A stretch of 64,000 nucleotides of DNA from a virus: IMG/VR virus record IMGVR_UViG_3300020394_000003, positions 1 to 64,000 of that record; one strand, given 5' to 3'. The notes under the pieces are model-generated. The model was not told the origin of the DNA and did not search any database. It worked only from the letters and a program-made list of their open reading frames with translations. Within the stretch, counting starts at the first letter, position 1. Each line of letters begins with the position of its first letter. The position numbers were made by a program, and so were the translations under genes. Positions 26,471-39,987 of the stretch are shown piece by piece.

Positions 26471-26499
26471 TAGACAACTCAGGACACCTGTGCTATAAT
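26471..26499 (+). promoter_or_regulatory. Promoter of the structured RNA / tmRNA locus
   Basis: TAGACA (26471-26476), 17-nt spacer, TGC, consensus TATAAT (26494-26499). Predicted start about 26506. No long ORF begins in the next 340 nt, which fits transcription of a non-coding RNA. Confidence 0.75.
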
Positions 26500-26505
26500 A
26501 GTTTC

Positions 26506-26764
26506 TATAAGCAGGAGCAGAAGCATGAACAAAAAATGTACTCCAGAGAGGTTTCTTTGAAGTACTAGAGAGTTGGCTTAGGTCGTCTATGCGTTTTGTT
26601 ATTTAGGTTCTAGGTCCGTATGAACCTTGCCGAATGCAATGAAATGGAGGATTCCCATTTAGAAGGGCGGCGAATTAAAATCGGGCTGGCATGGTGATGA
26701 GCGAGGAGATTCACCCGACCTACCAACTCTTGCCCCCACGCGCATACAAGATACGATAAGGGCA
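26506..26764 (+). ncRNA. Structured non-coding RNA of unknown class
   Basis: A long-range stem pairs AGAGTTGG-(CT)-TAGGTCG at 26569-26585 with CGACCTACCAACTCT at 26716-26730 (15 bp, one 2-nt bulge). It encloses three hairpins: AGGTTC/GAACCT (26605-26610/26622-26627), AAATGG/CCATTT (26642-26647/26655-26660) and GGTGA/TCACC (26693-26697/26711-26715). TGCCC/GGGCA (26731-26735/26760-26764) may close the 3' side. A good promoter lies upstream and the tmRNA gene downstream. It does not match 6S RNA, RNase P, GOLLD or group I intron landmarks I know. The 5' end is set from the promoter, and the 3' end is uncertain. Confidence 0.7.
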
Positions 26765-26855
26765 CGTATTACTTAATGATATAATTGATAAAGATATAAA
26801 GTGACGGCAAAAAACACTAGGCATGCACCCTTCCTAGTTAAAAAAAGAGAATGAA

Positions 26856-27107
26856 ATGTGGCAGCTTTGGGAATGGAACGGAAGATATATACAGGGCAAT
26901 TTAGTAAGCAAGCACAAAACCGAAGCTGCCACTATTTCTAAAGCAAAAAAAGTACTAGGCGAAGATATAAGATTAACAAAAGAAGAAAAAAAGAAGGAAA
27001 CAATAATTTGGATTGATAGTTCTGAAGGAGTTCCAGTAGGGCTCATCAGAAAACCCAAGGGGGCGCAACGGCTTCGACAGGGTAAGAAAGAGAAAGAGTG
27101 CAAGTAG
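26856..27107 (+). CDS. Small basic protein overlapping the tmRNA 5' end, 83 aa
   Basis: Starts MWQLWEWNGRYIQGNLVSKHKTEAATISKAKKVLGEDI and continues IIWIDSSEGVPVGLIRKPKG. I recall similar small proteins in marine phages. Its last 49 nt overlap the tmRNA gene; the tail after residue 68 is encoded by tmRNA sequence and need not be conserved. Function unknown. Confidence 0.55.
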   Translation: MWQLWEWNGRYIQGNLVSKHKTEAATISKAKKVLGEDIRLTKEEKKKETIIWIDSSEGVPVGLIRKPKGAQRLRQGKKEKECK

Positions 27108-27390
27108 GTTAGACACGACCTTAACAGTTCAAAAACAATAGTTGCAAATAACAACAACCACTTCGAACAGCGCTTAGCCGCTTAGTAGGGAGGCGGACTA
27201 GGGCCTTCTATCCAATCTAGTCAAAACAACAGATAAGTTGTAAAAATCAAAAAAACTTATCGCAACAGGATGGTAAGCGATATTTTATAACCATCTAGCT
27301 TTTCAGTTAGTGATTAAAACTGAATAAACTTGTGAACGACTTATATTGGACTTATTTTGGACGCGGGTTCGACTCCCGCCGCCTCCACCA
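27059..27390 (+). ncRNA. ssrA: tmRNA (one-piece), tag ANNNNHFEQRLAA
   Basis: The 5' end GGGGGCGCAACGGCTTCGAC is the typical tmRNA start. GGGGGCG (27059-27065) pairs with CGCCTCC before the encoded ACCA, the T arm is CGGG-TTCGACT-CCCG, and CCA ends at 27390. The resume codon GCA at 27144-27146 opens ANNNNHFEQRLAA, followed by TAG at 27183-27185. A terminal LAA is the usual degradation signal. At 332 nt the length is normal for one-piece tmRNA. A phage copy could rescue stalled ribosomes or retag host proteins during infection. Confidence 0.95.
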
Positions 27391-32036: not shown

Positions 32037-33389
32037 ATGAAAAAGAAAAATTATATTCTCGATACAAGCGTTTATTTAACAAACGCAAGAGCAATTTACG
32101 ACTTTGGAAGAAATGACATTATTATACCTTTAAAGGTATTAGAAGAAGTCGACAAACATAAAAAAAGACAAGACGGTGTTGGCTCACAAGCACGTCAATT
32201 TATTCGAATCTTAGATGCACTGAGAGAAAAAGGTTCATTAAGTAAAGGCGTCCGAATTGATACTGGAAAAGGGCTAGTCAAAGTATATGATCGTGGCGCC
32301 ACAGATGCCTCACTCTTGCCTCCTGACCTAGATCCTAGTGTACCTGACCACATCATCATCGCAACAGCCCTAACAGTAGCTGAACAAGATTCTAGTCGTA
32401 AGAGTATTATGGTCTCGCGTGATATTAACATGCGTGTTATCTGCGATTCAATTGGATTAACAGCAGAAGACTACAATGCAGCAAAAGCTGTTGACGATTT
32501 AGAAAAACTATATTCTGGATTTGATACTTACCTAGTCGATGATCAAACAATTGATAGGTTCTACTCAGGAGAAGATGTTTTTGTAGAAGAGGATGCACAA
32601 GCTCCAGAAAACAAATTCCAACCTAATCAGTATTTATTGTTAGTTTCGAATGCTAACGATAAAAAGACCGCACTAGCAAGATTTATGAATCACAACACAG
32701 CATTAAGAAAGGTTGTGCATGATAAACTGCCATCTTGGGGAATTCAATCTAGAAACAAAGAACAGGCATTTGCAATTGATCTTTTAATGGACCCGACGGT
32801 AGAGGTTGTTTCTTTAATTGGAAAAGCCGGCTCTGGAAAAACTCTGTGCGCTATTGCTGCTGGAATGGAACAGACACTAGGAACCAGCCTTAAAGCAGGC
32901 AAAAATAGTTTATATTCTAGAATGATTGTATCTAGACCAATTATGCCAATGGGTAGAGATATTGGTTTTCTTCCCGGCACAATGGAAGAAAAGATGCATC
33001 CATGGCTAATGCCAATTCAAGACAATCTTCAATTTCTCATGGGAAATGATAAGACCATGCTAGAGCAATACACTGAAAAGGGCTTGATTGAGATTGAAGC
33101 ACTAACTTATATTAGAGGGCGATCAATTTCTAATGCGTATATAATTATTGATGAGGCGCAGAACTTGACTGCGCATGAAATTAAAACAATTATTACTCGC
33201 GCCGGCGAGGGCACCAAGATCGTCTTAACAGGAGATATTGAACAGATTGATAATGCTTACACTGACGAAACGTCAAATGGCTTAGCCTATGCTATTGAAA
33301 AGTTTAAGTATTATGAAGTTTCGGGCCATATTACACTGCAAAAGGGAGAGCGCTCTAGAGTTGCCACGCTAGCTGCTAAGATTCTATAA
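32037..33389 (+). CDS. phoH: PIN-PhoH fusion (PhoH2/YlaK-like)
   Basis: 450 residues. The N-terminal PIN domain has IIVDTS-like ILDTSVYL, KVLEEVDKHK, DHIIIATAL and VSRDINMR, whose acidic residues fit a nuclease site. The C-terminal PhoH ATPase has GKAGSGKT (Walker A, near residues 261-268), YIIIDEAQN (Walker B) and TGDIEQID. Bacterial PhoH2 proteins combine RNA helicase and RNase activity. phoH is frequent in marine phages, usually as the ATPase alone, so the PIN fusion is worth noting. Confidence 0.92.
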   Translation: MKKKNYILDTSVYLTNARAIYDFGRNDIIIPLKVLEEVDKHKKRQDGVGSQARQFIRILDALREKGSLSKGVRIDTGKGLVKVYDRGATDASLLPPDLDPSVPDHIIIATALTVAEQDSSRKSIMVSRDINMRVICDSIGLTAEDYNAAKAVDDLEKLYSGFDTYLVDDQTIDRFYSGEDVFVEEDAQAPENKFQPNQYLLLVSNANDKKTALARFMNHNTALRKVVHDKLPSWGIQSRNKEQAFAIDLLMDPTVEVVSLIGKAGSGKTLCAIAAGMEQTLGTSLKAGKNSLYSRMIVSRPIMPMGRDIGFLPGTMEEKMHPWLMPIQDNLQFLMGNDKTMLEQYTEKGLIEIEALTYIRGRSISNAYIIIDEAQNLTAHEIKTIITRAGEGTKIVLTGDIEQIDNAYTDETSNGLAYAIEKFKYYEVSGHITLQKGERSRVATLAAKIL

Positions 33390-36133: not shown

Positions 36134-37411
36134 TTGAAATTAAAAACTGATAAAAAAACTATTGTAACACTGTCGGACCATCCACTAAGTCCCTCTGGAG
36201 TTGGCACGCAGACAAAATATGTAATGGAAGCATTGCTGCAAACAGGCAAATATAGGATCATATCTTTTGGCGGAGCTATTAAGCACTCTGATTATACTCC
36301 CAAGATGGTTGAGCCATACGGAGAAGATTGGATAATCCACCCAGTAGATGGATATGGAAATCAAGAAATGATTCGTTCTGTGTTAAGAACAGAGCGTCCT
36401 GATATTTTATGGTTTATGACAGATCCTAGATTTTGGCCATGGCTGTGGGAAATGGAAGATGAAATTAGATCGGTATGTCCAATGGTTTACTATCACGTCT
36501 GGGACAACTACCCTTACCCAGACTTTAATGCAAAATGGTATAACTCTACAGATGTAATTGCTTGTATCTCAAAGTTAACACATGACATTGTTCAAACGGT
36601 AGCACCAGATGTAGAATCTCATTATTTACCACACGCGGTACAATCTCAAATTTTTAAGCCACTTGACTCAAACGATGTTAAGGAATTTTCAAAGGCACTT
36701 TTAAATGATGGAGATAAGCTAGAGGATAAGGTAACTTTCTTTTGGAACAACAGGAACGCTCGTCGCAAACAGAGCGGTTCTTTGATTTATTGGTTTAACG
36801 ATTTTCTAGATAGGGTTGGTAGAGATAAGGCAAGATTGATTATGCACACTGAGCCAAGAGATCCGAATGGACAAGATTTAATTGCTATTCTAGAAAACTT
36901 AAATTTAACTAATGGAGAAATTTATCTTTCTACAAACAAGCTTCCTGCGGAATCTCTGGCGTTGATGTATAACATGGCAGATGTAACTGTGAACATCTCT
37001 GATGCCGAAGGGTTTGGACTAGCAACACTAGAATCATTATCTTGTGGCACGCCAATTATCGTGACAATGACTGGCGGTTTGCAAGAGCAAGTAACTGATG
37101 GCGAAAGCTGGTTTGGAATTGGCTTGGAACCGACTTCAAAATCAATCATTGGTTCACAACAGGTACCTTATATCTACGAAGATCGTCTTTCACAAGAACT
37201 AGTCGTCGGAGCACTAGAAGAAATGTTTAATAAAACCGCGGAAGAAAGATTGCAAATGGGCCTTGCAGGTCGAAATCATGTTTTGGTAAATTATGGCTTT
37301 GAATCTTTTTGTAAAAGCTGGGTTGAATTAATGGACAATGTAGTGGAAAATTATGGATCATGGAACGAGAGAAAGAATTACAAAAATTGGTATTTTGCGG
37401 AGGTAGCATAA
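36134..37411 (+). CDS. GT-B glycosyltransferase (GT4-like), 425 aa
   Basis: TTG start with GGAG upstream. N-terminal HPLSPSGVGTQTKYV (donor-side Gly loop). C-terminal ADVTVNISDAEGFGLATLESLSCGTPIIVTMTGG has the E-x7-E motif of GT4 retaining enzymes. First of three consecutive related transferases that begin the glycan cassette. Likely adds sugars to a virion protein or host glycan; donor unknown. Confidence 0.88.
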   Translation: MKLKTDKKTIVTLSDHPLSPSGVGTQTKYVMEALLQTGKYRIISFGGAIKHSDYTPKMVEPYGEDWIIHPVDGYGNQEMIRSVLRTERPDILWFMTDPRFWPWLWEMEDEIRSVCPMVYYHVWDNYPYPDFNAKWYNSTDVIACISKLTHDIVQTVAPDVESHYLPHAVQSQIFKPLDSNDVKEFSKALLNDGDKLEDKVTFFWNNRNARRKQSGSLIYWFNDFLDRVGRDKARLIMHTEPRDPNGQDLIAILENLNLTNGEIYLSTNKLPAESLALMYNMADVTVNISDAEGFGLATLESLSCGTPIIVTMTGGLQEQVTDGESWFGIGLEPTSKSIIGSQQVPYIYEDRLSQELVVGALEEMFNKTAEERLQMGLAGRNHVLVNYGFESFCKSWVELMDNVVENYGSWNERKNYKNWYFAEVA

Positions 37412-38731
37412 ATGAGTACGCAAAAAAAGAAAGTTTTAATTAGAGGCCCACTACTCACCAGATCAGGATATGGCGAGCAAGCTAGATTCGCATATAGAGC
37501 ACTAAAATCTAGGCCTGATCTATTTGATGTATATTTGGCTCCAACCAATTGGGGGCAGACTGGATGGATTAGCGACGACAATGATGAGCGCAGAGAGATG
37601 GACAGTGTAATCAGAAACACTACAACCCATGCTCAACAGTGTCAGCAGCAAGGTGTCTTAGCATTTGATGCGTCTATTCAAGTAACCATTCCACAAGAAT
37701 GGCAAAGAATTACACCAAAAAATATTGGATATACAGCAGGCACAGAAACAACCCTTATTTCACACAAATGGGTTGAGTCATGTCAAAATGTAGACAGGAT
37801 TATTGCAGTATCTGAGCACACTAAAGCAGCATTTGAAAATACTGAGTACGAAGGCAGAGATTCGGCCGGAAATACAATCTCAGCTAGGTGTACTACGCCA
37901 ATTGATGTTGTAGGATTCCCAACCAAACAGTTAGAACCAGTCGAGCTAGACTTCAAGCCTGAAACAAAATTTAATTTCTTAGTGGTTGCTCAGTGGTCTG
38001 ACCGTAAGAATTTGCCCGAAACCCTTCAAGGTTTTATGCGAGAATTTAATGATAATGAAGATGTTGGTCTGATTATTAAAACTAGTCTAGCTAAGAACTC
38101 TTACGTGGATAGGATTTATACTGAGGCTAGGTTAAAGCAATATCTTAAAAACTATGATAAAGCACCTTGGAATGGAAAGCCTAGAAAATGCAAATTGTAT
38201 TTACTTCATGGAAATATGTCCGATGAAGAGATGGCTGGACTCTACAGGCACCCTAACGTTAATGCCTTTATCAATCTTGCCCATGGTGAGGGCTTCGGGC
38301 TTCCTATTTTTGAAGCTGCCCAAGCTGGACTACCAATTGTTGCACCCAACTGGGGGGGTATAAAGGATTATATGAATGCGTATGTCACAACTAAGAGAGG
38401 CGCCGGCAAGAAAGCTCGTAAATCGCATGGCCGCATGCGTTTTCTGGGACAAAAGGTAGACTTTAGTGTCAAACCAATTCAAAAAGAAGCAGTATGGGAT
38501 GGAGTGCTGATTCCTGAGTCTAGCTGGTGTTTCCCACATGAAAAAAGTTTTATGCGCGCCATGAGAAAAATTTACAAGTCATATGATTTGGCTCTAAGCG
38601 ATGCTAAAAAATTAAAAGCTCACGTCGAAAAAGAATTTTCAGAAGAGATTCAACAAAATAAATTTGTAGAGTCAGTCCTAGAGACACTTGAGGCGTCTTC
38701 TCCACAATCTACTTCGGTTATTACTTTATGA
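37412..38731 (+). CDS. GT-B glycosyltransferase (GT4-like), 439 aa
   Basis: GPLLTRSGYGEQARFA at the N-terminus and NAFINLAHGEGFGLPIFEAAQAGLPIVAPNWGG at the C-terminus mark the GT4 fold with its Glu pair. It starts at the base after the previous stop, and its end overlaps the next gene by 4 nt. Confidence 0.88.
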   Translation: MSTQKKKVLIRGPLLTRSGYGEQARFAYRALKSRPDLFDVYLAPTNWGQTGWISDDNDERREMDSVIRNTTTHAQQCQQQGVLAFDASIQVTIPQEWQRITPKNIGYTAGTETTLISHKWVESCQNVDRIIAVSEHTKAAFENTEYEGRDSAGNTISARCTTPIDVVGFPTKQLEPVELDFKPETKFNFLVVAQWSDRKNLPETLQGFMREFNDNEDVGLIIKTSLAKNSYVDRIYTEARLKQYLKNYDKAPWNGKPRKCKLYLLHGNMSDEEMAGLYRHPNVNAFINLAHGEGFGLPIFEAAQAGLPIVAPNWGGIKDYMNAYVTTKRGAGKKARKSHGRMRFLGQKVDFSVKPIQKEAVWDGVLIPESSWCFPHEKSFMRAMRKIYKSYDLALSDAKKLKAHVEKEFSEEIQQNKFVESVLETLEASSPQSTSVITL

Positions 38732-39987
38732 CAAAAAAGATATTATATCAAGGCCAGCTAGGTGATCCTAGCGGATACGCCGTTGCTGGTCGCGGCTATT
38801 TGCGTTCTATGTATGACTACATTCAAGAAAAAAAATTAGATATTGATTTAAAAGTACTTTCTATTAATGCGGATGAGCAGAGTGCTTTAACACAAGAAGA
38901 AGCTGAATTTCTCAATATGCTTTCTTTTGACAGCAACGAAGAGATAGATGCTTGGACTGAGGCCGAGGACTTTCATTACATATTCCATCATCCTCCTGTT
39001 TATGCTTGGAAAATAGACGCAACTAAGTTTTTTGCATCGAAATCAGCGACCACAACCTGTGTTACGGTGTGGGAGACAGATGCAATGCCACCGGTATGGA
39101 ATGATATCCTTAAAGCATTTGAAGTAGACAGAATCGTGGTCCCGTGCCAGTGGAACAAAGATTCTTTTGAAGCTAGTTTAGAGAAATTTGACAATTCGAT
39201 GCCTGTAAAAATGGTGCCTCATTTAATTAATGACGATTTTGTCGGCTCTGCGGAAATTGAACCACTACCTCAAGAGCTTTTGTCCCCTGACCACTTTAAC
39301 GTCTTAACAGTAGGGCAGTGGACCGACAGAAAAGCCCTGATGAATGTCGTCAAAGCATATCTAATGGAATTTAAAGATAACGAAGATTGCTCTTTAGTTG
39401 TTAAAACGTATGGAAATATTCAAGATTCTAGACCTGAGTATCAACAGCAGCAACAACAAATGATGGCTAATGAAATTACTCTTTTAAAAAGATCAATCTT
39501 GAACGACAGTCTATCCAAAACTCCTAGCTGCAAAATTCATCTTCTTTATGGCTTGTTTCCAAAAAGTCAAATGAATTATCTATACAGGGAGAGCGATCTG
39601 TTTGCGCTTTTTAGCCGCGCAGAAGGATTTGGTTTGCCAATTGCTGAATCTCTAGTCCACGAAACTCCTGTAATTGTACATGATAAGGGCGGACATGTAG
39701 GCTTTGTAGATCCTAAAAACAACTATATTGTAAACAGTTATCTAACGCCTGCCCACTGCAAAATCTTTCCATTTGTATATTCGTGTGACAGTAACTGGTT
39801 TGAGACAGACTATATTTCAGCAAGAAAGCAATTGCGATCCGCCTATAATGAATGGAAACACGAGCCTGAAGCATATGCCCAACGAGGCCCAAATGCAAAA
39901 GAATATATGCTTGAAGTAACTGGTGATAGTTTAAAAATTGGTAAAGAGCTAGTTGAATTTGTATTAAGTGAAGATGAAGAAGACTAG
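38728..39987 (+). CDS. GT-B glycosyltransferase (GT4-like), 419 aa
   Basis: YQGQLGDPSGYAVAGRGYL at the N-terminus and LFALFSRAEGFGLPIAESLVHETPVIVHDKGG at the C-terminus. Same layout as the two preceding genes, so the three form a diverged family. Its end overlaps the next gene by 20 nt. Confidence 0.88.
   Translation: MTKKILYQGQLGDPSGYAVAGRGYLRSMYDYIQEKKLDIDLKVLSINADEQSALTQEEAEFLNMLSFDSNEEIDAWTEAEDFHYIFHHPPVYAWKIDATKFFASKSATTTCVTVWETDAMPPVWNDILKAFEVDRIVVPCQWNKDSFEASLEKFDNSMPVKMVPHLINDDFVGSAEIEPLPQELLSPDHFNVLTVGQWTDRKALMNVVKAYLMEFKDNEDCSLVVKTYGNIQDSRPEYQQQQQQMMANEITLLKRSILNDSLSKTPSCKIHLLYGLFPKSQMNYLYRESDLFALFSRAEGFGLPIAESLVHETPVIVHDKGGHVGFVDPKNNYIVNSYLTPAHCKIFPFVYSCDSNWFETDYISARKQLRSAYNEWKHEPEAYAQRGPNAKEYMLEVTGDSLKIGKELVEFVLSEDEED

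Follow-up and report, generated by a model that had tools for sequence, protein, structure and literature searches.

A small pseudoknotted RNA near tmRNA and tRNA genes of uncultured viruses as a proposed new RNA family

An uncultured virus carries, between an HTH-like gene and its gene for tmRNA, which rescues stalled ribosomes, what sequence comparison strongly supports as a new family of small non-coding RNA with a conserved pseudoknotted fold. The DNA analysed, referred to here as the window, covers the initial 64 kb of a virus record of 161.7 kb. The proposal of a new structured RNA, made in an earlier note from the letters of the window, is borne out by covariation among homologues and by the lack of an Rfam match at permissive thresholds. 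Comparable covariation in a class of small structured RNAs usually means that the class is functional. Altogether, 24 type-A and 3 type-B copies were collected from 22 virus records and one MAG scaffold, with about 97 related virus records searched and G017 left out of the copy count.

Fold of the RNA and its covariation

The RNA is closed by a 15-bp long-range stem, P1, which is present where the earlier note had placed it (Table 1). Its 5' strand consists of A26569, GAGTTGG (26570-26576), the bulge, and TAGGTCG (26579-26585), and the longest comparable stem among dinucleotide-shuffled versions of 26506-26764 (n = 200) has 13 bp. The three enclosed hairpins of the note were found as P2 (AGGTTC/GAACCT), AAATGG/CCATTT (26642-26647/26655-26660), and P4 (GGTGA/TCACC), and its possible 3' hairpin exists as well. 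However, the described architecture was understated, as it missed both a pseudoknot from the P2 loop (26614-26618/26682-26686) and the helix GCCG/CGGC. This helix, P3, encloses the AAATGG/CCATTT hairpin in the window; it is present in the window and in the relatives L005 and L078, and absent in more distant members. The sequence of the 5' leader hairpin (26538-26565) is not conserved.

Table 1. Coordinates of the RNA elements and neighbouring features (window positions unless a locus is named)
Feature	Position	Strand	Remarks
Upstream gene, 113 aa	26127..26468	+	HTH-like by eye; conserved neighbour
Sigma70-like promoter TAGACA-N17-TATAAT, extended -10 TG	26471..26499	+	predicted; aligned promoter in L005
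5' leader hairpin GTACT...AGTAC (26538-26542/26561-26565)	26538..26565	+	seen in sequence, partly in fold; weakly supported
P1 5' strand	26569..26585	+	15 bp, 2-nt bulge 26577-26578; covariation
P2 5' strand AGGTTC	26605..26610	+	covaries in distant relatives: GGCTC/GAGCC, GGATC/GATCC, CCTTC/GAAGG
Pseudoknot 5' strand GTCCG, in P2 loop	26614..26618	+	covariation
P2 3' strand GAACCT	26622..26627	+	covariation
P3 helix GCCG/CGGC (26629-26632/26668-26671)	26629..26671	+	GCTG/CAGC by compensatory change in L005; retained in L078
Pseudoknot 3' strand CGGGC	26682..26686	+	covariation
Conserved UGGCA	26687..26691	+	directly 3' of pseudoknot; U[GA]G[CU]A in most members
P4 hairpin GGTGA/TCACC, loop TGAGCGAGGAGAT	26693..26715	+	covariation; loop core GCGA/GTGA/GCAA in most members
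P1 3' strand CGACCTACCAACTCT	26716..26730	+	seen in sequence; covariation
Possible 3' hairpin GCCC/GGGC (26732-26735/26760-26763)	26732..26763	+	covariation from L005 alone (GCTCA/TGAGC)
83-aa ORF	26856..27107	+	between RNA and tmRNA, whose 5' end it overlaps; conserved in L005, L077, L078
tmRNA	27059..27390	+	tag ANNNNHFEQRLAA
Type-B copies	L279:1068-1216; L280:1292-1441; L281:1243-1405		phages also carrying type A; away from tmRNA

In folding energy the region does not stand out (z = -0.43), with 63 of 200 shuffles folding equally well, and the case for the RNA therefore rests on comparative evidence. The architecture had been called too regular to be chance; folding energy alone does not show such regularity, whereas covariation does contradict a chance fold. 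That an intergenic region without RNA function folds this way by chance, as the z-score would allow, has a negligible probability given covariation in four helices, one of which was never used for alignment.

The fold common to the family comprises P1 as the closing stem, P2 with 5-6 bp and an 11-12-nt loop, and P4 with a purine-rich loop of GCGA type, abutting P1 or nearly so; all curated elements were checked as present in the sequences. The window and its type-A relatives share P1, P2 with the 11-12-nt loop, the loop pseudoknot before U[GA]G, and P4. In the pseudoknot, P2-loop positions 4-9 pair with the six nucleotides directly 5' of U[GA]G[CU]A, as in GUCAUC/GAUGAC (L102), GUUCGU/ACGAAC (L078), GGCUC/GAGCC (L270), and CCCUU/AAGGG (L269).

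Covariation among homologues, the check proposed in the earlier note together with its absence as the finding that would speak against the RNA, was found. Two-sided changes are already seen in 7 pairs when the window, L005, and L078 are aligned. A model-made alignment of 15 sequences has 96.3% standard pair cells against 69.3% in shuffles, and 99 two-sided-change cells against 28, a level reached by none of 500 shuffles. The pseudoknot was not part of the model behind this alignment, and alone shows 19 two-sided changes over the 15 rows against 4.6 (0 of 500 shuffles). The covariation scores of the whole structure and of the pseudoknot alone exceed those of all 500 shuffles and all slid registers. 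Among 22 curated sequences (19 for P4), the pairing reaches 100% for P1, 95% for P2, and 96% for P4, values biased upward by strands partly picked by eye for pairing, and 90% for the pseudoknot, whose register was fixed beforehand. Dealing the 3' strands randomly gives 48% for P1, 78% for P2, 69% for the pseudoknot, and 60% for P4, and none of 2000 shuffles reaches the observed value for any helix. Moreover, 5-6 of the 6 pseudoknot pairs form in 21 of 22 members, compared to a mean of 2.3 of 6 in 71 background pattern matches. In the close relatives L181/L184 and L182/L185, P1 and P4 are kept through matched changes.

Relatives and their genomic surroundings

Relatives were reached by several routes. 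Protein searches with the HTH gene next to the RNA and with the 83-aa ORF gave L005 and L078, respectively, and a search with a 1032-aa gene gave 31 and then 80 related records; the copy in L051 was recognised 5' of its own tmRNA. The covariance model R1, built from the window, L005, and L078, found L102 and L104, and then L186 and L187. A second covariance model, R2, found L263-L271 and L276, with L278 at a weak E-value only. A structure-only scan, with a background of 1 match per 110 shuffled sequences, recovered at its strict cut-off (score >=21) 13 of 19 curated type-A members together with L201, and the scan added L181, L182, and L185 as well as another copy in L057; a dozen or so other scattered strict-cut-off matches, mostly at GC-rich loci, were taken as chance. 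One of 71 matches in a pattern scan of bacterial genomes was true, namely the phage piece L201 in a MAG scaffold. It was rejected as host evidence: the piece of the WOR-3 MAG (CP070664.1) is a phage tmRNA-region fragment adjoining an N-run, and the scaffold is probably chimeric.

Weak model matches in LR756508, P-TIM68, Mel-JY01, G019, and G029 were also set aside, as they have no pseudoknot and resemble coding sequence. A blastn search of the region against annotated phages gave chance matches only, and exact loop or P1 patterns gave mostly coding false positives, recovering only the near-identical contig L007 and known homologues. The RNA was not found in T4, including its RNA C/D, or in three further annotated phage records, nor in an architecture scan 5' of other tmRNA loci (L283-L293, L058, and L077). 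In L077:4600-5571 and L057:13500-13600, the RNA is missing, and the 83-aa ORF or tmRNA directly follows the HTH gene or promoter; these are natural deletions or pre-insertion states.

The placement beside tmRNA and tRNAs noticed in the window holds across relatives, in which the RNA usually heads a same-strand tmRNA or tRNA transcription unit. With tmRNA positions taken from the Rfam tmRNA model, 15 same-strand copies lie upstream of tmRNA at 12-837 nt. The distances are 337 nt in G000, 309 in G001, 327 in G030, 17 in G031, 12 in G007, 14 in G061, 230 in G057, 837 in G054, 252 in G039, 75 in G035, 58 in G033, 57 in G034, and 20 in G046, about 13 nt in L201, and about 150 nt in G095 with a tRNA-Gly between. 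The RNA lies upstream in 14 of 29 records with a tmRNA above the cut-off; the many tmRNA-bearing relatives without it indicate that the RNA is not essential to tmRNA. It abuts tRNA-Gly in L181, L182, and L185 and tRNA-Leu in L057, and the L278 copy is close to tRNA-Gly or tRNA-Leu. The L102 and L267 copies lie about 25-28 kb from tmRNA, and those of L104, L266, and L276 are on fragments without a tmRNA. Every copy whose surroundings were read has a same-strand gene downstream. A further conserved hairpin, GCCCCCTCG...CGAGGGGGC, is located between the RNA and tmRNA in L268, L269, and L271.

Type B, a less certain member assigned from three sequences, shares P2, the pseudoknot, and a GCGA/GCAA-type P4 loop, and sits among small ORFs. 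Its closing stems reach 18 bp and its motif is U[AG]GCGAGG..CGCGGC[GA]A..ACAGCG; it has no Rfam match at the gathering threshold. Copies away from tmRNA (L102, L267, and type B) imply that the RNA and its function are not tied to tmRNA alone.

In the window, the placement between the HTH gene and tmRNA was rightly described, except that the 83-aa ORF also lies between the RNA and tmRNA. Since this ORF ends within the tmRNA gene (start 27059), translation of a pre-tmRNA would run over the mature tmRNA 5' end. The 113-aa upstream gene has no Pfam match, and the search of annotated phages found no protein relatives of it and only distant relatives of the 1032-aa gene. The Rfam scan of the window detected the tmRNA and tRNAs. 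Just 5' of the 83-aa ORF lies a hairpin CUAGG...CCUAG (26813-26838), with a loop partly kept in L005 (GGCA...CCCUU) and a preQ1 riboswitch match below threshold (12.9 bits vs 39). Near the tRNA region are also a PhoH-like gene (32037-33389) and three consecutive glycosyltransferase genes (36224-39984).

Transcript ends and possible roles

The consensus promoter of the earlier note was confirmed as TAGACA-17-TATAAT with an extended TG, matching at 11 of 12 positions. In 15 of 26 members, a promoter scan found a match upstream that reaches p<=0.05 relative to shuffles. In eleven of these, a spacing of 13-27 nt lies between the end of the -10 box and the inner P1 strand, putting the predicted transcription start at or just before P1. 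The matches are predicted promoters, and in about 40% of members the scan found no convincing one. At the other end, P1 is followed by a U-run in L102, L267, L276, L278, L181, L182, L185, L268, and L281, with the U-run standing directly before a ribosome-binding site in L102 and L267. No U-run follows P1 in the window, L051, L186, L187, or L270. The modelled RNA end is 12-20 nt from tmRNA in L051, L186, L187, L270, and L201.

The leading proposal, held with about even confidence and derived from sequence features, is a discrete RNA with its own sigma70-like promoter that would be freed by RNase P or ended by P1 and a U-run, and would act in trans. Transcription would start with the RNA itself, often from a sigma70-like promoter. 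Its 3' end would arise either from an RNase P cut at the 5' end of the abutting tmRNA or tRNA, or from P1 and the U-run serving as an intrinsic terminator. The freed compact RNA would most plausibly bind a protein, ribosome, or ligand via its conserved loops during infection. A discrete RNA is suggested by the promoters and the U-runs after P1, and release by RNase P by a tmRNA 12-20 nt away (L051, L186, L187, L270, and L201) or a close tRNA-Gly or tRNA-Leu. Trans action is suggested by the copies far from tmRNA (L102 and L267) and by type-B copies elsewhere in type-A phages. On the other hand, the window copy has no U-run and an ORF precedes its tmRNA, so that neither route explains its 3' end. 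In addition, the U-runs before ribosome-binding sites are just as compatible with a riboswitch.

The RNA may have a role related to translation or polymerase, as first suggested from the neighbouring genes. More specifically, and only tentatively, the RNA could represent a new functional class: a multi-copy trans-acting phage RNA manipulating ribosomes, trans-translation, or a host RNA-binding protein, or alternatively a riboswitch class gating tmRNA/tRNA synthesis. A CsrA sponge with GGA in its loops was dropped, as GGA is not kept in L276, L269, L270, and L278.

The best surviving alternative, possible although on balance unlikely, is a riboswitch-like cis leader, in which the pseudoknotted junction would be an aptamer and P1, as a terminator stem with U's, would switch the downstream tmRNA, tRNA, or small ORF. 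A same-strand gene downstream of the copies, conserved unpaired nucleotides beside variable stems, the P1 stems with U-runs that directly precede the next gene (L102, L267, the L278 group, and L281), and a topology resembling that of SAM-I riboswitches are all consistent with it. However, the downstream genes (tmRNA, tRNA-Gly, tRNA-Leu, and unrelated small ORFs) have no common function, Rfam gives no riboswitch match, and the gap between P1 and tmRNA in L051, L186, L187, and L270 is no more than about 10-20 nt, with neither a U-run nor an alternative terminator in it. It is decidedly unlikely that the RNA is a cis leader for maturation or stability, guiding RNase P or blocking exonucleases for efficient phage tmRNA/tRNA processing: ten members lie directly 5' of tmRNA or tRNA, but L102, L267, L104, and type B adjoin neither, and an ORF intervenes in the window, L005, and L078. 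It is very improbable that the RNA is catalytic, by self-cleavage or in another way, as the compact pseudoknotted fold, GNRA-like loop, and nearly invariant single-stranded motifs are set against the lack of a match to known ribozyme families in Rfam and of a conserved cleavage-site context outside P1.

Comparison with known RNAs

The Rfam search proposed in the earlier note bears out novelty: the window RNA and 12 relative loci match none of the 4227 Rfam 15 families at gathering thresholds, and scans of the same loci at permissive E-values gave only sub-threshold chance matches, PreQ1 and TCL6 among those rejected, and the neighbouring tRNA/tmRNA. The Rfam models of 6S, RNase P, GOLLD, and ROOL are all unmatched, as the note had judged by eye. 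No earlier description of the RNA was found in a literature search of open-access papers. What is new is the RNA structural class, as phage structured RNAs of unknown function are already known; Rfam contains no comparable class associated with viral tmRNA/tRNA operons, and the alignments and models are usable in metatranscriptome searches.

SAM-I clan: In SAM-I riboswitches, P1 is the closing stem and the loop of P2 forms a pseudoknot with the junction strand preceding P4. This shared topology is a resemblance and not membership, and the SAM-I clan covariance models leave the window RNA and the 12 relative loci unmatched. In contrast to SAM-I, the RNA here precedes tmRNA/tRNA, and no SAM-related downstream gene was recognised.

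tmRNA and permuted tmRNA: tmRNA is a neighbour of the RNA and also contains a pseudoknot. However, the Rfam tmRNA matches fall on the adjacent tmRNA gene, and the RNA here has no visible tRNA-like domain or tag frame.

T4 RNA C and D: The rnaC and rnaD genes of a T4-type phage encode small stable RNAs and lie within its tRNA cluster. Their predicted folds differ from the RNA here, and they were rejected as homologues, with no R2 match in the T4 tRNA region and no R3 match at rnaC/rnaD in whole T4.

GOLLD and ROOL: These are ornate, structured, pseudoknotted phage/prophage RNAs of unknown function near tRNA islands (PMC12286853). The RNA here is likewise a structured, pseudoknotted phage RNA near tRNA genes, whereas GOLLD and ROOL are larger, GOLLD members often >800 nt, and differ in structure (PMC12286853). 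The role of such RNAs has been a question since T4 RNA C/D and again with GOLLD/ROOL, and the present RNA, at about 110-190 nt, offers a concrete, small, and foldable target for the role of structured phage RNAs near tRNA clusters.
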